DNA from: Planctomycetota bacterium
Lineage (GTDB): Bacteria > Planctomycetota > GCA-002687715 > DRQF01
Length of the DNA stretch: 37,394 bases
Direction: 5' to 3'
Assembly (NCBI GenBank): GCA_011369445.1
Contig: DRQF01000258.1
Span: 1-37,394 of the forward strand
In this document: positions 26,522 through 35,779 of the stretch, piece by piece
Numbering within the stretch: position 1 is the stretch's first letter
Layout of the letters: every line of letters begins with the position of its first letter
The notes under the pieces: model-generated
The model's input: the letters and a program-made list of their open reading frames with translations, nothing else
The model's database searches: none
Told to the model about the DNA's origin: nothing
Program-made: the position numbers and the translations under genes

Positions 26522-28477
26522 TCAATGAAGGTTGCGCAGCAGAACGGTGAGATTGCGCGCCGGGCGCGGGTCGCCGGGGTTGAGGGCCAAGGCTTTGCGA
26601 AAGAGCAGCTCCGCCTCACCGAGCCGCCCTGAGTCCATGAGAAGAAGGCCCAGATTGTTCAACGCGTCCCCGTCGGCTGGGGTGAGGGCGAGGGTGCGAC
26701 GATAGGCTTGGATCGCAGCCGCCTTGTTTCCTTGAGCCGCAAGGAGGACGCCCCGGTTGTAGTGCGCTGACGCCAAATCGGGATGACGGCGGACGAGGAC
26801 GTCGAGGCGTCGAATGGCCTTGTCGAGATGCCCTTTCTCCGCGTCGATCTGGGAGATGGCAAGCTCCACGGACGGTCGCCCCGGCTCTTCCTCGGCGACG
26901 CGACGCAAATCCCTTTCCGCCCCATCCAGATGTCCTTGTCTCAAGTGGGCGTCGGCTCTCAGCTCGAGCGTCGTCCAGAGTTCTTCGCGGGCGTGAACGT
27001 CCCGCCCCTCGAGAACCTCGAGGATGCGATCGGCCCACGTCTCTGCGCGATCCGGACGTCCCGCGAGGAGCCACGCGCGGGCGCAGTCGAACGCGAGAGC
27101 GGTCGGCAGTGGGCTGCCATCGAGCCGTTCCTCCATGAGTTGGGCGGCCGCGGCATGGCGTCCGAGCCGCCTGAGCGCGTCCGTCAAAGACACGTCGATG
27201 TCGGGGGGATGGACCCAACCCCAGCGCCTTCGAGCCTTGAGATGGTTCACGAGAGCGATGAGGTCTGCCCGAGCGACGGGACCTTCCCGAGTCCGGATGC
27301 GCTCCACGAGCCGGTCGCCCATGGCCTCGTGCCAGCGCACCGGTGCGTGGTACGCCAGGAGCCCTACGGCCAGGACAGCGGCCACGACCCGTCCACGATT
27401 TCGTTGAAGTTCCTGGCTTCTCCAGCTTCTAAGAGCGAGAATCACCGCCGCCGCGGTGGAGGCGCCGAGAGCCAAAGTCAGAAAGAATGGAACGACGCGA
27501 TAGAGGCCTCGGTAGACGACAAGAGAGGAAAGCACGAGCAGAAGCGCCAAGGCCTCCTCCCCGAGGGTCAGATCCCACGGGATGCGACTGCGCCCCTTCC
27601 GCCAGCCTCGGAAGAACGCGGGTTTCGTGAATCGCCACGCGAGGACGCGCCCCGAGCAGACGTCCACGCAGTCCATATCCTTCAGGCACCGAGGATCGAC
27701 GACACGACCGAACCTGTTGACCTCGTCGCGGACCTGAATGCCGGAGCTGCATGTCCGCGTGCAGGCGTTGCAGCCCAGACAATCGCCCTTGATCGCGATC
27801 CGTCCAGGAGACAGACCGTCCGCCACCCGAAAAAGAACTCCGTAGGGACAGACGTTTCCGCAGAAAGAGCGTGAACCCAGCAACCAAACGATGACGAACC
27901 CGGCAACGAGAAACGTCATGATGGCGATGACGGGCCCGGGAAGATTCCGCGCGTAGTCGGTGGTAACGAAGGACGCCCAACCCTCGCCGTCGGCGAGGAC
28001 CCGCAGTTGGAAGTCGGGACGTGGTCCAAGGATGGCCTCGGTGGAGGGGTAGGCATGGACGATGAGTCTGGCGACGGTGGGCCAGACGAACATGTATAGA
28101 GCTGTGATGGGCGCTATGGCCAGGAGAAGCCGGGAACGGATGGGCTTCGGCTTCAGCCCGAATCTGCCAAGCAGGGCCGCGCAAAGGTCCTGCAGAGCCA
28201 GAATGTGACAACCCCAGCCGCAGAAGAAACGTCCGAAAACGAGCGTTGCGAGAAGAGCGGCCGACATGAACAGGAAGCCGGCCGTGACGACGCCCAGCTC
28301 GATGGTGTGCATGACCTCATTCAATTCGAGAGGAGCCAAGGTCTTCCCGGCCAACTTCCAGTGCACGTAGTGGGCGACCATGAGAAGCTGAACGACGATC
28401 AACACGCCCGCCCGCCAACGGGTGCGTCGCGTGTGCGCGGCGCTGTTCAGCTTCCCACGAGAACTCCCAGGTTCCAT
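26522..28477 (-). CDS. NapH/CcoG-like membrane polyferredoxin fused to a TPR domain
   Basis: The 651-residue product has N-terminal transmembrane helices carrying FCGWGCH (85-91) and FCGNVCPYG (205-213), the two cysteine motifs of NapH, NosR and CcoG-type membrane ferredoxins. A cytoplasmic ferredoxin segment follows. CLGCNACTRTC (233-243) gives one full [4Fe-4S] motif; the second (Cys264, Cys270, Cys274 in CLKDMDCVDVC) is variant in spacing. Further helices come next, then a soluble C-terminal region with TPR repeats (about 500-640; for example ASAHYNRGVLLAAQGNKAAAIQAYRR). Such proteins pass electrons between the quinone pool or cytoplasm and periplasmic redox partners. The ATG at 28477 has AAGGAGAT 8 bases upstream. 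It lies 16 bases after the cytochrome gene and is the third gene of the nod-like operon. The TPR fusion is unusual. Confidence 0.87.
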   Translation of the reverse strand: MEPGSSRGKLNSAAHTRRTRWRAGVLIVVQLLMVAHYVHWKLAGKTLAPLELNEVMHTIELGVVTAGFLFMSAALLATLVFGRFFCGWGCHILALQDLCAALLGRFGLKPKPIRSRLLLAIAPITALYMFVWPTVARLIVHAYPSTEAILGPRPDFQLRVLADGEGWASFVTTDYARNLPGPVIAIMTFLVAGFVIVWLLGSRSFCGNVCPYGVLFRVADGLSPGRIAIKGDCLGCNACTRTCSSGIQVRDEVNRFGRVVDPRCLKDMDCVDVCSGRVLAWRFTKPAFFRGWRKGRSRIPWDLTLGEEALALLLVLSSLVVYRGLYRVVPFFLTLALGASTAAAVILALRSWRSQELQRNRGRVVAAVLAVGLLAYHAPVRWHEAMGDRLVERIRTREGPVARADLIALVNHLKARRRWGWVHPPDIDVSLTDALRRLGRHAAAAQLMEERLDGSPLPTALAFDCARAWLLAGRPDRAETWADRILEVLEGRDVHAREELWTTLELRADAHLRQGHLDGAERDLRRVAEEEPGRPSVELAISQIDAEKGHLDKAIRRLDVLVRRHPDLASAHYNRGVLLAAQGNKAAAIQAYRRTLALTPADGDALNNLGLLLMDSGRLGEAELLFRKALALNPGDPRPARNLTVLLRNLH

Positions 28478-28493
28478 CGAACTCGATCTCCTT

Positions 28494-30539
28494 TCAGGGC
28501 TCAGACGTGATCGATAGGCCGTTTGAAAACGACCAGCCGATTCCACTCGTGCTGTCGGAGGCGAGCCACTGGGCGTAGAACGTCGTTCCGGCAAAGGCCG
28601 GAATGAACGGGACCGTGAAGTCCAAAGCCGCCTGTCCAGAGCCGTCCGCTCCCACGACGTAGGACATGTCCGGCGACACGAGCAATGCGCAGCCCGGGGC
28701 GCCGACGGCCGTGAGGTCCAGGGGCAGTCCTATGGCGCCCCACTGCGTGTTGCTGTTCCCCAGCAGAAGGATCGCCGTGGCCGTGGGCTGGGCGCCGCTC
28801 AGGGTCACCTGGAAGGTGGTGGAACCGATGGTGGGCTCGCCCGACCAAGAGGCCACAAGACCATTGCAGCCGGTTCCGAAGGAGGAGACCGCCTGCGCTC
28901 CTGGGCTCGCCCACGTCGCCTCCTCCATGAGATGCCCGAAATACGGCGGCTGGATGTCTTCCAGCGGATCGCCGTGGCCGTCGACAGTCCAATTCTTCGC
29001 ATCGGTGAGGAACCGGAATGAGCGGCGGTAGATCAATCGTGCCCTGACCTTGAACGTGCCTCCTCCGGGGGGCAGCTGGAAGCTGTAGTTGGTCGTGTCA
29101 GTCGCGAGGGCCGGGATGCGATTGTCGAAGAGGATGGATGTGGCATCCGTGAAGAAGGTGGGACCGTTGCCGTTTGCGTCGAGATTGTGCTTGGCGTAGA
29201 GCTTCCCGGGAAGCCCTGCGTAGTAGCCCTGGGCGGGGTCGCCCACGCCTCCGAGGGCATGGATGGTCTGCGACCCGGAGTCGACGAGTTTCTGCCCGTC
29301 TTCGACCCGCCAGGCCTCCACGAGGAGAATCATGTTGCGGATCGTGACACCCGTTGGGAGAGCATGACCCGCGTGGGAGTTGGTCACGTCGACGGTCACC
29401 TGAAGCTCCGTTGGGGTCGGTTGAACACTGACGGCGAGGTCGGCGGCGCTCTCGAGGAACGCCGGCGAGGTCCCCTCCACGTCGTGGGTACGCACCTGGG
29501 AAGGGGCTCGTTGAACCGGCTGCACGACGCATACGGTCGTCTGACCGTTCGGGGGCATATGGCAATCCACGCAGGTGGCGAAATGGGGATCGGAAGGGTT
29601 GGAGTAGGGGCTGGAGAGCCATTCGTCCCACGTCGGCTCCGAGACGACTCCGTTCGGTTCCGAGAAGTTGCCATTCCCATCCGGGTCGTTCTTGTCCTGG
29701 TGACACGCCGCACAGACCGCGGCCTCGAGCTGCGGCTGATACGAGGGGCGCATGAGGCCGGGCGCCTCGTAGTCGGCGTCGGGATAAGTTCCGTATTCCA
29801 CTTGGTGAGTCAGCAACGGTTGGGTCGGACGGGTCAAGGTGACGGAGCTCGGATGAATCCCAGGGAAGTCCGTCTTTGCAAGGTCGATGTCAGCGATCTT
29901 GTGGCAGATCTCGCAAGAGACTCCGTTGAGCGCCCCCTGGCTGAGCGCGCCGATGGGCTCGAGCGCGGTGAACGGTTGAGCGACCCATGGCTCGGGTTGG
30001 TGGCACGACTTGCATTCCGAGGCCGGGTTGGCCGCGGCGTGGATGGAGCCGGTGGTGTAGACGAATCCCCCCATGCCGCCGGCGGTGCCCGTCCCGTCGT
30101 AGATGTCATAGACCCAGAGATTCTGGCCCGCGTGTGCCATCTTCGAACCCGTCCATTCGGCGAGCGCCTGGGGATGGCAACCGCCGCAAACGTTGGGGTC
30201 GAGCAGGGTGTAGGAAGGATCGTTGCTCGCCGGGACAGGTTCCAGGGTGATGAGGACACCGAAGGCCGGAGCCGTCACGGTCAGTCCCTTGTTGAAATAG
30301 CCCTTCTTCCCGACGACGACGCGGAGATTCGGTCCGAGGAGGCCGGGGAGGGTGAAGGTGCCATTGGCGGCCGTCGTCGTTTGCGTGGTGGTGGCCTTGA
30401 GGGTGACGAGGGCGTCGGCAACGGGCGAGCCCGTGGTGTCCAGCACGATGCCCGAGACCTGAGCGGACATCGCGGCCGCAAGGAGGCTCAGCGCGAAAAT
30501 GCTGACGAGAAGCCTGTGGCGAAGTGAGAAGCCGTACAT
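28494..30539 (-). CDS. Secreted pentaheme cytochrome c with N-terminal carboxypeptidase-regulatory-like domain
   Basis: The 681-residue product has a Sec signal peptide (LLVSIFALSLLAAAMSAQ). A beta domain like the carboxypeptidase regulatory domain follows (VSGIVLDTTGSPVADALVTL ... GTFTLPGL). It then has five heme c attachment sites: CGGCH (118-122), CKSCH (176-180), CEICH (209-213), CAACH (276-280) and CVDCH (323-327). A long beta-rich part follows, ending in a C-terminal domain (FGTGCNGLVASWSGEPTIG ... VPFIPAFAGTTFYAQWLAS) shared with other secreted proteins here. The ATG at 30539 has AAGGAG about 9 bases upstream. It lies 30 bases after the nod-like gene. It is probably a periplasmic or surface electron carrier; a nitrite- or NO-reactive role is possible but not shown. 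A paralogue is at 33545. Confidence 0.9.
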   Translation of the reverse strand: MYGFSLRHRLLVSIFALSLLAAAMSAQVSGIVLDTTGSPVADALVTLKATTTQTTTAANGTFTLPGLLGPNLRVVVGKKGYFNKGLTVTAPAFGVLITLEPVPASNDPSYTLLDPNVCGGCHPQALAEWTGSKMAHAGQNLWVYDIYDGTGTAGGMGGFVYTTGSIHAAANPASECKSCHQPEPWVAQPFTALEPIGALSQGALNGVSCEICHKIADIDLAKTDFPGIHPSSVTLTRPTQPLLTHQVEYGTYPDADYEAPGLMRPSYQPQLEAAVCAACHQDKNDPDGNGNFSEPNGVVSEPTWDEWLSSPYSNPSDPHFATCVDCHMPPNGQTTVCVVQPVQRAPSQVRTHDVEGTSPAFLESAADLAVSVQPTPTELQVTVDVTNSHAGHALPTGVTIRNMILLVEAWRVEDGQKLVDSGSQTIHALGGVGDPAQGYYAGLPGKLYAKHNLDANGNGPTFFTDATSILFDNRIPALATDTTNYSFQLPPGGGTFKVRARLIYRRSFRFLTDAKNWTVDGHGDPLEDIQPPYFGHLMEEATWASPGAQAVSSFGTGCNGLVASWSGEPTIGSTTFQVTLSGAQPTATAILLLGNSNTQWGAIGLPLDLTAVGAPGCALLVSPDMSYVVGADGSGQAALDFTVPFIPAFAGTTFYAQWLASDSTSGIGWSFSNGLSITSEP

Positions 30540-30569: not shown

Positions 30570-32909
30570 TCAGCGAACCGGCACCTCGACCTTGGGAACG
30601 TCTCGGCTCGCATCGAGGGGTCGGGAAGGTTGGTCCTTTGGTGCCTCCGGGACGTCCTTTATGCGCTGGAGACCTCGGAGGATGAAGACCGTGAGGGGAA
30701 TCACTCCGCCGAGAAGGAAGATCGCTCCCCCGAGCATCCGCATCCATGTGAAGGTCTGAAAGGTCGATCCAGCGATGAAGTCGAGGGAGCGGGCCTGGGC
30801 CAGTCCCGAGGATAGGACGACGTTCAGCTGGACGAGTCCGATGGGGAATGTGTCCAGGAGCACCATGGCCATGAGACCGATGTTGATGGACCAGAAGGAC
30901 ACGCGGAGCAGTCGCGTGTTCCAGGCCGAGGGAGCCAGAAGATACCGGGCGCAGAACAGCACCGCGGCGATCGAAAGGTTCCCGTAGACCCCCATCAGGG
31001 CGGCGTGACCGTGGTTCACCGTCAGGTACGTGCCGTGTTCGTAATAGTTCACGATGGGAAGATTGATGATGAAGCCGAACACACCTGCGCCGAGGAAGTT
31101 CCAGAAGCTGACTGCCATGAGAAACATGAACGCTTCTTGGAGTCCGAAGCGGCCCTTGCCATCGTTTCTCCCGTTGCTTTCGCGGCGACGTTCGGCGGGC
31201 AGTCGTCGGAAACGCCAGGCGTCCAACATCAGCAGGATGAGAGGCACGACCTGGAGCGTTGAGAACACGCTGCCCACCGCCATGGTCGCGGTCGGTTTGG
31301 CGTTCCAGTAGAAGTTATGGGCGATGCCCAGGAACCCTGATCCCAGGAAGAGAAGCACCGCCAGATACACGGTGCGTTCCGCCGATGCACGGGTCACCAA
31401 TCCCATGGAAACGAGGAACCATGCGACGATCACGGTGGTGAAGACCTCGAAGAAGCATTCCGCCCACATGTGGATCACCATCCACCGCCAGAAATCCGCG
31501 ATGACGAAGTTCGTCCGCGGGGACGCGACGAAGCTCGAGAGGAAAAGCACCGAGATCCCGATCGTCGTGTAGAGGAGCCAGTGGGGAATGGTGAACCAGG
31601 ACTTGGCACTCAGTGCCGGCTTGACACCTCGGAAGACGATGACGCTCCACAGCACCAGAGACGCGAAGAGGACGATCTGGAAGGCCCGGCCGAGCTCGAC
31701 GAACTCCCATCCCTGATTGCCGAACCACCTCCAACCGGCGCCGAGGAGTCCTTTCGGTCCAAGGAGGACTCCGATCAAGGTGCCGGCCACGACGGTGGCG
31801 AGCATGCCGAAGAGGATGTTGACCAGGAGCAGCTGGCGACGGGGCTCCGAGCCTGCAATCCGAGGCAAGGCGAAGATCGATGCGGCAATCCAACAGGTGG
31901 CGATCCACAGGACGGAAACCTGGATGTGCCAGCTTCGCGTGATGGTCAAAGGAAGCAGAGCCTGGATGTCGAAACCGAAAAAGCGCGTCAACCCGACGAA
32001 GTCGTGAATCGTGAGGACTCCCGCCAACACTTGGAGTAGGAAAAGGCTGATCGCGACGGCGAAGAACTTGTAGGTGGCGCGCTGGGTGGGAGTGGGGATT
32101 CGGGCATCGACCTCCTCGGTCGTCGTGACAGGAGTGTCGGGGCCGGATTCCTTCGCCGTGAGGGTCTTGAACTTGCCCTGCAGGTACAGAACGAGTCCCA
32201 GGCCAAGAATGAGCCCCATGGAACCGACGACACTCCACAGAAGGATGGCGCGGCCGGGGCGATTCCCGGCTTGTGGGTCAAAGGGCCAGTTGTGTGTGAA
32301 GCTCGCTTCGTCCCCGGGCCGCTTTGCGGCGCACACCCAGGACCCCCAATAGAAGAACGAGGCGAGGTCGTCCAATTCACGGTCGTCGCGGATGTAGCGA
32401 AGGGGGCGGAAGGACCGGGGGCCATCTCCGCGGAAACTCTCGCGAACCCAGGCGCGTACCGATTCCAACCCGGCTTCTGCGGCAGCCGAGAGAGGCAGCG
32501 CTCCCGTCGCCTCGTCGTAGTGGTTCTCGTGGAGCTCTCGGCGCACACGATTCTCCACGACTTCGAGTTCGTCGCGGGTGGGGGCGCGACCCAACTGGGC
32601 ACGCAGGGCGTCTGACTCGTGAGCCACCATGCCGAGATAGGCCTCATGAAGCGCCGTGGCCGTGAAGTCCGGACCCCGGCCGCCACCGTCCCCGAACATG
32701 CTTCCGTACTGCATGAGCGCGTACTTTTGGAAGACCGCCTGACCGGCGAGGATGGCGCTCTCATCCACGAGCACCTCTCCGCTCGCCGAGGTGAAACGGG
32801 GGAGTGGGGGGGCGTCCTGGTAGGTGCGAACACCCATCCAGAGTACGCCGGACCCTCCGGCGAGCAGAACGATGAGGAGGGGTATCCAAAGCCTGGGTGT
32901 ATTGCTCAT
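30570..32909 (-). CDS. nod: qNOR-like heme-copper-superfamily enzyme, candidate nitric oxide dismutase
   Basis: The 779-residue product has the architecture of single-chain quinol nitric oxide reductase: an N-terminal helix, a periplasmic domain (AGQAVFQKYALMQYGSMFG, GPDFTATALHEAY) without a heme c motif, and about 13 further helices. Heme ligands are visible at His328 (SWHIQ) and at His633 and His635 (NHGHAALMG). FeB-side residues are His480 and His531, with Glu484. By eye against qNOR as I remember it, four key positions differ. The second His of the His-His pair is Asn532 (GIAHNFYW). The active-site Glu in ALEVVPL is Gln553 (TLQVVPL). Two quinol-site acids are Gly306 (IHDFVGLTRF) and Gly728 (MRMLGGAIF). 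I recall this set as the mark of putative Nod, which would turn NO into N2 and O2. A degenerate NO reductase is the alternative. The enzyme heads a three-gene operon. Confidence 0.8.
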   Translation of the reverse strand: MSNTPRLWIPLLIVLLAGGSGVLWMGVRTYQDAPPLPRFTSASGEVLVDESAILAGQAVFQKYALMQYGSMFGDGGGRGPDFTATALHEAYLGMVAHESDALRAQLGRAPTRDELEVVENRVRRELHENHYDEATGALPLSAAAEAGLESVRAWVRESFRGDGPRSFRPLRYIRDDRELDDLASFFYWGSWVCAAKRPGDEASFTHNWPFDPQAGNRPGRAILLWSVVGSMGLILGLGLVLYLQGKFKTLTAKESGPDTPVTTTEEVDARIPTPTQRATYKFFAVAISLFLLQVLAGVLTIHDFVGLTRFFGFDIQALLPLTITRSWHIQVSVLWIATCWIAASIFALPRIAGSEPRRQLLLVNILFGMLATVVAGTLIGVLLGPKGLLGAGWRWFGNQGWEFVELGRAFQIVLFASLVLWSVIVFRGVKPALSAKSWFTIPHWLLYTTIGISVLFLSSFVASPRTNFVIADFWRWMVIHMWAECFFEVFTTVIVAWFLVSMGLVTRASAERTVYLAVLLFLGSGFLGIAHNFYWNAKPTATMAVGSVFSTLQVVPLILLMLDAWRFRRLPAERRRESNGRNDGKGRFGLQEAFMFLMAVSFWNFLGAGVFGFIINLPIVNYYEHGTYLTVNHGHAALMGVYGNLSIAAVLFCARYLLAPSAWNTRLLRVSFWSINIGLMAMVLLDTFPIGLVQLNVVLSSGLAQARSLDFIAGSTFQTFTWMRMLGGAIFLLGGVIPLTVFILRGLQRIKDVPEAPKDQPSRPLDASRDVPKVEVPVR

Positions 32910-33081: not shown

Positions 33082-33516
33082 ATGAGCTTGGGAAACGCGA
33101 TTCTTCGAGCGAGGCAGCAGCGAAAACTGACCCAGGGGGAAGTAGGGCGCAAGGCCGGCCTGCAGACGTCCTATATCTCTCGCATCGAGAACGGCCGTGT
33201 CCAACCCACCATGGGAACCATCGGGCGTATCGCCGAGGCGCTGGACGTCTCGCTCTCGGATCTGTTCCGACTTGCTGAACGCGAGAAGGAGACGAAGCTG
33301 CGTCAGTGTCCGGTGAGCCAGACGGGCGACTGCATCGGTGAGTTGATTCGAAACGCCACCGGGCGCCCGCCAAACGGAGGCAAGGCCCACTACGGTCCGG
33401 AAGAGCTCCATATCCTGCGAATGGCGGACTACCTCGTCGTCCACGGCAGCACGGACGACCGCCGCGCCCTCGCCATCGTCCTCGAAGGATTCCTGGCCAG
33501 GAAGACGCGTTCCTGA
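33082..33516 (+). CDS. XRE-family transcriptional regulator with conserved-looking cysteine pair
   Basis: The 144-residue product has an N-terminal helix-turn-helix of the Cro/C1 (XRE) type (residues 5-65; LTQGEVGRKAGLQTSYISRIENGRVQPT). A linker follows, then CPVSQTGDCIGELIR with Cys76 and Cys84. The C-terminal region is helical (EELHILRMADYLVVHG). The cysteine pair next to a DNA-binding domain suggests redox, metal or NO sensing, which is inference. The ATG at 33082 has AAGGAGG about 9 bases upstream, a strong ribosome site. It is divergent from the nod-like operon and convergent with the second pentaheme cytochrome, 28 bases away, so it is the obvious candidate to control both. Confidence 0.88.
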   Translation: MSLGNAILRARQQRKLTQGEVGRKAGLQTSYISRIENGRVQPTMGTIGRIAEALDVSLSDLFRLAEREKETKLRQCPVSQTGDCIGELIRNATGRPPNGGKAHYGPEELHILRMADYLVVHGSTDDRRALAIVLEGFLARKTRS

Positions 33517-33544: not shown

Positions 33545-35578
33545 TCAGGGCTCCGCCGTGACCGAGAGCCCGTTCGAGAAGGCCCAACCCAATGGAATCG
33601 ACGGATCCGAGGCCAACCACTGGGCGTGCAGCGTGAAGCCGGCCAGCGCCGGGACAAAGGGGATCATCGACACGAGGCTCGCATTCCCGAAGCCGTCGGT
33701 GGCCGTAAAGAAAGAGAGGTCCGGGGAGACCAAAAGAGAGCATCCGGGCGCTCCCACCGACGTGAGATCCAAAGGCAGGGGAGTGAGTCCCCATTGGGTG
33801 GTGCTGTTCCCAACGATGAGGATCGCGGTGGCACCCGGCTGAGCTCCCCCGAGAGTCAAGGTGAAGTCGCTCGTTCCGATGCTGGGTTCCCCTGTCCAGG
33901 ACGCCACGAGACCGTTGCATCCTGTCCCGAAGGACGTTACCGCCTGGGCCCCGGGCGTCGACCAAGAGGCTTCCTCCATCAAGTGGCCGAAGTAGGGCGC
34001 TTGGAGATCCTCGAGAGGTTCGCCGTGACCGGTGGTCGTCCAACCCTTGGCGTCCACGAGGTCGCGGTAGGCACGCCGGTAGATCAGGCGCGCCCGCACC
34101 TTGTAACTGCCGCCGCCCGGAAGCAGCTGGAAGGAGTAGTTCGTCGTATCCGTTGCGAGCGCGGGGATCCGGGTGTCGGACTGCACAGAGGCGGCTTCGG
34201 TGAAGAAGGTCGGTCCGTTCCCGTTCGCGTCCAAGGTGACCTTTGCGAAGGTCTTGCCGGGAAGGCCCGCGAAATAGCCTTGGGCCGGGCTTCCCACGCC
34301 GCCTATGGCGTCGATCTGTTGGGAGCCCGTGTCCACGAGTTTCTGGCCGTCCTCGATCCGCCACGCCTCGACCAAAAGGATCATGTTCCGGATGGGGACG
34401 CCCGTGGGCACATGGTGCCCGGCATGATTGTTCGTGGCGTCAACGGTGACCTGCAACTCCGTGGAGGTCTGCTGCACCGTGAGATTCAGATCGACCGCAT
34501 TCTCGAGGTATTCCGGAGAGGTCCCGAGGATATTGTGGGTTCGCACTTCGGACGGATCCCTTTGGACCGGCGCCAGGGCACACAGATCGGTCTGCCCGTT
34601 CGGTGGCATGTGGCAGTCCGTGCAGGTCTGGTGGAGGGGATTCGTTGGATCCGAGTAAGGACTCGCTAGCCATTCATTCCACGTAGGTTCCGCCACGACC
34701 CCGTTGGGCTCGTCATAGATGCCGTTCTCGTCCGGGTCGTTCTTGTCCTGGTGGCAGGTCGCGCACATCTCCGCCTTGAGCTGGGGTTGGTACGATGGGC
34801 GCATGATGCCGGGAATGCTGAAGTCGGCATCCGGAAGGGTTCCATATTGGACCTGATGCACGGCAGTCGGTGAGGCCGGGCGATTCAAGGTGACCGCGGT
34901 GGCATGAACGCCCGGATAGTCCAACTTCGACGTGTCGACATCCGCGATCTTGTGACAGACCTCGCAGGAGACTCCATTAGCCGCCGACTGGGTGAGAGCG
35001 TTCAACGGATCCATGGCGCTGAAGGGTTGAGCGATCCAGATTTCGGGTTGGTGGCACGAAGCACACTCGCCCCCCGGGAGGGCCGTCGAGTGGACAGAGT
35101 CGGTCGTGTAGACGAATCCACCGTTTCCTCCGGGCGTGCCCGTGCCGTCGAAGACGTCGTAGACCCAGACGTTTTGCCCGGTATGCGCCATGCGCGAGCC
35201 CGTCCATTCCAGCTCTTGCTGGGGATGGCAGCCGCCGCAGACGGGCGGATCGAGGAACGTGTAGCCGGGGTTGTTGCCGACCACGACCATTTCCAAGTTG
35301 ATGATGACACCCATCGCGGGGGCGGTCACGATGACCGAAGCGTTGTAGTAGCCCTTCTTGCCGGCGACGATTTTCAGGTTGGAGCCCGAAAGTGAAGGCA
35401 GCGAGAACGAACCGTCCGCGGCCGTCGTCGTGCGATTGAGGTCGCCCTGCAAGGAGACGGTGGCATCGGCGAGGGGTGAACCCGCGGTGTCCATCACGAA
35501 ACCCGAGACCTGGCCGAGGAGATCGGCGGTCAAGAGGAAAGTGACCAGCACTGCGAGGGAGAGGATTTTCGTCTTCAT
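33545..35578 (-). CDS. Second secreted pentaheme cytochrome c (paralogue of the 28494 gene)
   Basis: The 677-residue product is collinear with the cytochrome at 28494 over its whole length. It has a signal peptide (LSLAVLVTFLLTADLLGQ) and a carboxypeptidase-regulatory-like domain (VSGFVMDTAGSPLADATVSL). Five heme sites follow: CGGCH (114-118), CASCH (172-176), CEVCH (205-209), CATCH (272-276) and CTDCH (319-323). The same C-terminal domain ends the protein (GCNGLVASWTGEPSIG ... ALAGFTLHAQWLAS). Large stretches are nearly identical in sequence to the paralogue (for example VPTGVPIRNMILLVEAWRIEDGQKL), while linkers differ, so it is an older duplication. The ATG at 35578 has AAGGA 10 bases upstream; the open frame continues 46 codons further. 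It faces the XRE regulator tail to tail. Confidence 0.9.
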   Translation of the reverse strand: MKTKILSLAVLVTFLLTADLLGQVSGFVMDTAGSPLADATVSLQGDLNRTTTAADGSFSLPSLSGSNLKIVAGKKGYYNASVIVTAPAMGVIINLEMVVVGNNPGYTFLDPPVCGGCHPQQELEWTGSRMAHTGQNVWVYDVFDGTGTPGGNGGFVYTTDSVHSTALPGGECASCHQPEIWIAQPFSAMDPLNALTQSAANGVSCEVCHKIADVDTSKLDYPGVHATAVTLNRPASPTAVHQVQYGTLPDADFSIPGIMRPSYQPQLKAEMCATCHQDKNDPDENGIYDEPNGVVAEPTWNEWLASPYSDPTNPLHQTCTDCHMPPNGQTDLCALAPVQRDPSEVRTHNILGTSPEYLENAVDLNLTVQQTSTELQVTVDATNNHAGHHVPTGVPIRNMILLVEAWRIEDGQKLVDTGSQQIDAIGGVGSPAQGYFAGLPGKTFAKVTLDANGNGPTFFTEAASVQSDTRIPALATDTTNYSFQLLPGGGSYKVRARLIYRRAYRDLVDAKGWTTTGHGEPLEDLQAPYFGHLMEEASWSTPGAQAVTSFGTGCNGLVASWTGEPSIGTSDFTLTLGGAQPGATAILIVGNSTTQWGLTPLPLDLTSVGAPGCSLLVSPDLSFFTATDGFGNASLVSMIPFVPALAGFTLHAQWLASDPSIPLGWAFSNGLSVTAEP

Positions 35579-35779
35579 TTCGATCTGGTCCTTGGAAATG
35601 GAACGGCGTGTCTGTGACGAGGGACGCGGCGAGTATTCTCCCGAAACCGGTCCATGGCCGCAAAACAAAAATCGGTTGGCCTCCATGATTTCGGCGAACA
35701 CTCGAAAGGACATCAAGGGAAAGCCCTCTCAACGGGTGACTTCTACCGGTCCTGAAGGATTCTTGTCATCGTGGGCAGG

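Follow-up and report, generated by a model that had tools for sequence, protein, structure and literature searches.

The putative nitric oxide dismutase (Nod) is thought to split NO into N2 and O2 in the dark and, in the part of a 2026 paper drawn on here, is presented as an enzyme that has not been characterised biochemically and for which opposing results exist (PMC13386854). In Ettwig 2012, the putative Nod is described by an Asn in place of an FeB-ligating His, a Gln in place of Glu and the loss of the quinol site (PMC3413370). Deviations at His328, Glu332 and Phe336 have likewise been described, together with qNor-related clusters of unknown kind that lie between nod and qNor (PMC10286720). 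Genes assigned to nod have been reported in Sediminibacterium and Algoriphagus (PMC10264387) and in two metagenome-assembled genomes (MAGs) of Scalindua (PMC10359470), and Planctomycetia are cited, after another paper, among the nod carriers (PMC12285268). Nor sequences with nod characters have also been found in foraminifera that produced N2O, which counts against an O2-forming reading (PMC6636425); all of these statements are taken from passages of the papers cited.

The nod-like gene described here lies on contig DRQF01000258.1 of a 4.5 Mb planctomycete MAG (299 contigs, 89.9% complete), and this contig, 37,394 nucleotides in length, is referred to below as the window. An initial annotation had proposed that the gene encodes an O2-forming Nod in a planctomycete-like genome, and the planctomycete origin has been borne out.

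The protein and its correspondence with qNOR

The gene (30570..32909, on the minus strand, which the initial annotation had left unstated) is an open reading frame of 779 amino acids with zero internal stops, and its product consists of an N-terminal helix, a cytochrome-c-like domain that lacks CxxCH and, as its core, a helical region of COX1 type. The likeness to quinol NO reductase (qNOR) that had been claimed along its length holds: phmmer aligns residues 12-751 with the qNOR of PDB entry 3ayf (E 6e-162), and the Pfam families NorB_cytochrome_c-like and COX1 both score above their cut-offs. An AlphaFold2 model, built with 32 aligned sequences and containing neither metals nor hemes, has a mean pLDDT of 82.9 and a pTM of 0.87; searched with Foldseek, it finds 3ayf at the top (TM 0.86/0.88), other qNORs next, and cNOR and cbb3 structures lower. 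The predicted structure has the qNOR fold with a cytochrome-c-like domain minus heme c. Against NCBIfam release 20.0 the protein gave zero matches at E 0.001, hence nod-like genes may go unnamed as Nod in automatic annotation.

Residues were matched to those of the Geobacillus qNOR (3ayf) by MAFFT columns. The pair His531-Asn532 (codons at 31314..31319; these and all further codons are on the minus strand) corresponds to His559-His560, with Asn in place of an FeB ligand, and Gln553 (31251..31253) corresponds to the active-site Glu581, whereas His480 and Glu484 (31458..31472), which equal His508 and Glu512, are FeB-site residues that are kept. The heme ligands His633 and His635 correspond to His651 and His653, and the heme ligand at position 328 of the protein itself lies opposite a His in the phmmer alignment to 3ayf. 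In the half-lost quinol region (31980..32006), His302 (= His328) and Phe310 (= Phe336) are kept and Gly306 replaces Glu332, and a further Gly, Gly728 (30726..30728), takes the place of the quinol-site Asp746. Rather than the three FeB histidines and the active-site Glu of a qNOR, the protein has both replacements described for Nod, Asn for FeB His560 and Gln for Glu581. The four substitutions and the conserved residues had been assigned by eye in the initial annotation, and the alignments place every one of them at the column named; the loss of the quinol site stands for Glu332 and Asp746 and not for His328 and Phe336, which are kept as in most of the Bacteroidota Nods examined (from here on, quinol- and FeB-site positions follow 3ayf numbering unless the residue belongs to the protein itself).

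Both general nod primers given in Table 2 of PMC6636425 have a site in the gene when up to 3 mismatches are permitted. The forward primer nod684Fv2 matches the FTHNWP motif with 1 mismatch (32284..32301, minus strand) and the reverse primer nod1706Rv2 the FYWNAKP motif with 2 (31294..31314, minus strand), the primers themselves spelling YTHNWP and FYWIAKP. In 100 shuffles used as a control, the reverse primer matched in 0 and the forward primer in 10, so that the forward match by itself is weak evidence.

Relatives and phylogenetic placement

Among planctomycetes, to which Scalindua belongs, 68 of 392 genomes have a match at E 1e-20. When 49 planctomycete relatives, a subset of all matches, were read alongside the protein and 3ayf, His-Asn with Gln was found in 31 of the 51 rows, His-His with Glu in 20 and a mixture in 0; because the Asn and Gln changes are always paired, the pattern of the protein is not a product of chance. 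Proteins with Asn and Gln occur in at least 28 of the 392 genomes, that of the window counted. Those of group A, to which the protein belongs (16 rows), have His328 in 16/16 and Phe336 in 14/16. Group B (10 rows; L016-L021, L023-L025 and L028) shares His-Asn and Gln at 49-53% identity to the protein, but lacks His328 (0/10), with Ser, Ala or Ile in its place, and has Val746 in 9/10 rows (those reaching 746) and an HNFYWNAKS or HNFYWNGKS motif. Group C (5 rows) is marked by Asn328-Arg332 and FYWIAKP, and occurs together with group A in genomes G120, G225 and G264. The distribution of Nod subtypes is patchy; for instance, G158 (L020, L040) and G186 (L028), which belong to the same family as the genome of the window, carry the group B type and no group A, and G158 has a His-His/Glu qNOR besides. 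As such genes are widespread and, in the passages cited, planctomycete nods have already been reported (PMC10359470, PMC12285268), the gene is less exceptional than the initial annotation had rated it.

Elsewhere, contigs were scanned with the peptide patterns THNWP[YF]D[PE] and GI[SA]HNFYW, a sample that therefore leans towards Nod. Relatives are encoded in 348 of 352 stretches, and the best 80 of the 348 were taken, each locus being represented by the row closest to the protein. In this set, recruited by Nod-leaning patterns, Asn and Gln are present in 80/80 loci, which include strain HdN1 (L104), a Methylomirabilis (L073), Algoriphagus, Cecembia, Indibacter and Flavihumibacter. The last four represent a Bacteroidota type of putative Nod (L109-L130, mostly Bacteroidota, with L115 from Myxococcota and L119 from Acidobacteriota), which resembles the protein in His-Asn and Gln (22/22), in the HNFYWNAKP motif and in the combination of His328 and Gly332 (17/22, 16 of these 17 also having Gly746), at 49-53% identity in 17 of 18 aligned loci; the other row, 40% identical, is the second, HdN1-like copy of L123. 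Algoriphagus, called nod-bearing in a passage of PMC10264387, is thus among loci most of which keep His328. In contrast to this type, planctomycete group A forms a separate branch, and NosZ, present in 4/4 Bacteroidota-type carriers tested, was not found in the genome of the window. The Methylomirabilis/HdN1 type (L073 and L104, each 44% identical to the protein) shares His-Asn, Gln and THNWP, and Gly746 in L073, but has FYWIAKP or FYWIGKP, Ile746 in HdN1 and His328 in 0/58 loci (L051-L108). The qNORs (Geobacillus 3ayf and planctomycete, proteobacterial, actinobacterial, desulfobacterial and haloarchaeal proteins) share the fold, the heme ligands, His508, Glu512 and His559, but form a distinct clade, and their His560, Glu581, Glu332 and Asp746 are altered in the protein. 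At 12 columns that separate the 80 Nods from 20 qNORs (19/20 of them planctomycete), a set defined without groups A and B and with columns 234, 557 and 560 falling inside the recruiting patterns, the protein agrees with the Nods at 10 and with the qNORs at 1, and at the remaining 1 it differs from both.

Several of these loci are unusual in themselves. L115, from a Myxococcales bacterium, has Asn and Gln yet keeps His328, Phe336 and Asp746, and its placement inside the Nod clade shifts between trees; it is possibly an intermediate between the quinol sites of qNOR and Nod. In L121, L124, L128 and L129 (Cyclobacteriaceae) and in L082, the locus that contains nod also encodes a heme-copper protein which is NorB-like, short (~450-484 aa) and of the His-His/Glu kind. 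In L102 (a Deltaproteobacteria MAG) an HdN1-type Nod-like frame is followed by a partial group-B-like one, and in L123 (a Flavobacteriales MAG) Bacteroidota-type and HdN1-like frames lie in one locus.

Before trees were built, nine columns were cut (3ayf 328, 332, 336, 559, 560, 581, 746 and, beside THNWP, 231-232) and column 234 was retained. In a first tree of 86 of 139 rows, with fragments, group C duplicates, extra frames and near-copies omitted, the Asn/Gln proteins form one clade (SH-aLRT 100). This clade is supported at 100/100 in a careful tree of 48 of those 86 rows, where the protein joins that of G228 (100/96), and still at 100/100 in a tree of 53 rows to which five plasmid qNORs, all with His-His and Glu, had been added (Sphingobium, Methylosinus, Streptomyces, Desulfosarcina and Haloarcula; a sixth plasmid match, L182, a two-piece match with no annotated gene, was not used). 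It holds the protein together with the HdN1, Methylomirabilis and Algoriphagus Nods, with qNORs outside, so that the placement expected in the initial annotation is recovered with the diagnostic columns removed. Grouping the protein with qNOR is rejected by the AU test (p 0.012 for the 48-row set and 0.0046 for the 53-row set), as is joining it to the Methylomirabilis/HdN1 group (p 1.6e-6); holding group A and the Bacteroidota-type rows as one clade is not rejected (p 0.088), and the 86-row and 48-row trees disagree on the deep branching among Nod subgroups. Judging from these comparisons, it is close to certain that the protein belongs to the putative Nod family, a family already known and of which it is a clear member. 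With a probability of about 0.6, we propose that the gene encodes a member of a Planctomycetota branch of putative Nod, one which resembles the Bacteroidota type, and that this protein forms O2 from NO.

Gene neighbourhood and respiratory genes

Downstream of nod, after 30 bases, begins a gene for a pentaheme c-type cytochrome with a carboxypeptidase-regulatory domain (28494..30539, minus strand; 5 CxxCH, PF13620), with AAAGGAG ahead of its ATG. It is followed by a gene for a NapH-like membrane 4Fe-4S protein with C-terminal TPR (26522..28477, minus strand; PF12801 and TPR, TIGR02163 below cut-off), whose likely ATG at 28477 lies 16 bases past the cytochrome stop and again has AAAGGAG upstream, although the open reading frame as listed starts further up, at 28594. 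By spacing alone, the three genes form an apparent operon. A gene for an HTH_3 protein (33082..33516, plus strand; Pfam) is divergent from nod and possibly encodes its regulator. Beyond it lies a second pentaheme cytochrome (33545..35716, minus strand; Pfam, CxxCH), which shares 67% identity with the first; nod and the HTH gene are thus enclosed by two such cytochromes, each having a carboxypeptidase-regulatory domain. Against the PDB, the pentaheme cytochrome gave two chance-like matches only.

These neighbours were compared with all frames of 20 other planctomycete nod loci and, for 100 other nod loci, with the frames called there. A conserved nod operon is rejected, as no relatives of the cytochromes were found in either set and the Fe-S family occurs in genomes with and without nod. 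In 7/15 group A loci (L133-L138 and L140), DUF1800 and DUF1501 genes lie near nod on the same strand, the L133 pair alone having been domain-scanned and the others assigned by clustering; six of these loci belong to one family (f24) and one (G171) to another order. The recurring neighbours of nod in the relatives are thus DUF1800 and DUF1501 genes, as scanned in that one pair, and not nirK. At L131, L138, L140, L143 and others, nod was positioned by genome search, the simple gene caller having missed it.

The apparent operon bears on an alternative that we regard as doubtful, namely that the protein is of the Nod clade by descent and uses supplied electrons to reduce or detoxify NO. These would reach it either from the quinol pool, by way of the Fe-S protein of NapH type and then the pentaheme cytochrome, or at a quinol site that has been remodelled. 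The presence of this electron-transfer pair and the retention of His328 and Phe336 argue for this alternative and against O2 formation, and a relative of the Fe-S protein adjoins nod in G112 and lies ~7 kb from a group B nod in G308. No second NOR was found in the ~90%-complete assembly by a COX1-family search at 1e-10, so that something else must handle NO, and NO detoxification is raised, from neighbouring regulators, in a passage of PMC13386854. However, the protein lacks Glu332, Asp746, Glu581 and one of the FeB histidines, and a search of the 20 planctomycete nod neighbourhoods found no homologue of the cytochrome. The NapH-like family, moreover, is found in 11/12 genomes of the order, in 5/5 with a nod-like match and in 6/7 without one, hence nod-specificity of this operon partner is not established.

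With regard to respiration, the genome has three COX1-family matches at 1e-10: the product of nod, a CtaD of aa3 type accompanied by CtaC, and a CcoN accompanied by CcoO (oxidase names read from translations), and NarG scores above cut-off beside frames read as NarH, NarJ, NarI and NarK. NirS was not found in this ~90%-complete assembly, with a profile that also had no match in 14 standard control genomes, and NrfA-type PF02335, with matches in 6/16 genomes searched, had none in it. Candidates for NirK in this genome were rejected, the weak matches at 1e-3 being to multicopper oxidase only, beside a frame read as TolC-like, and NirK was found in none of 15 group A genomes at 1e-20. This lack of a recognised NO-forming nitrite reductase counts against the O2-forming reading. 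Among the 15 group A carriers, a further COX1-family protein is present in 15, NarG in 9, NirS in 9 (counting a short fragment) and NosZ above cut-off, across TIGR04246 and TIGR04244, in 0. TIGR04246 had 0/15 matches in a run in which no control matched, and as a positive control it detected NosZ in the four Bacteroidota Nod carriers. TIGR04244 matched 4/18 genomes, 2 of them above cut-off, the controls HdN1 and Roseovarius amoyensis, and below cut-off Algoriphagus and the group A genome G120, the latter in a 57-position match at 2.5e-6. For many group A relatives this means that NO is formed while N2O is not reduced, as expected if Nod by-passes N2O; the argument is weakened by the NosZ of other Nod carriers and by a count confined, among planctomycetes, to carriers of nod.

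Proposed chemistry and significance

For metal content, reaction, reaction direction and purpose of the protein, we infer the following from its residues and the accompanying genes. Two NO would be bound at heme b3 and at a non-heme metal with His480, His531, Asn532 and Glu484 of the protein as its ligands, and the bound pair would be rearranged to N2 and O2, with outside electrons unneeded. The aa3 and cbb3 oxidases of the cell itself would consume the O2, in which case the cell could, as suggested in the initial annotation, make its own oxygen, or the reaction may merely remove NO.

Another NO chemistry or a sensor, in which the altered site would bind or isomerise NO with no net O2 or N2O, appears unlikely: the FeB ligand set is altered and a passage of PMC13386854 holds that no activity of a purified family enzyme has been measured, but the protein retains the heme ligands and, in its predicted structure, the overall fold, and the conservation of the clade across several phyla fits an enzyme. 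It is more speculative still, and in our judgement quite improbable, that nod, the pentaheme cytochrome and the NapH-like Fe-S/TPR protein constitute a self-contained 'nitrite to oxygen' module, in which a quinol-linked Fe-S protein and the cytochrome would reduce NarGHI-made nitrite to NO outside and Nod would convert that NO to N2 and O2 for the aa3 and cbb3 oxidases. Such a module, if true, would account for a genome in which Nar, Nod and oxidases were found and a recognised NirS, NirK, further NOR or NosZ was not. That the protein is an ordinary qNOR whose substitutions arose by chance, a view for which the 34-43% identity to full-length planctomycete qNORs and the same fold would speak, is ruled out by the residues, which change together in a 100/100 clade, and by the trees.

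The preferred reading is that of an O2-forming putative Nod of a planctomycete branch. As Nods of this branch keep half the quinol site, loss of His328 is unsuitable as a criterion for Nod. If the Nod chemistry is true, this planctomycete could respire O2 made from NO, by-passing N2O, and the 15 group A carriers provide a genomic setting in which this chemistry can be tested.
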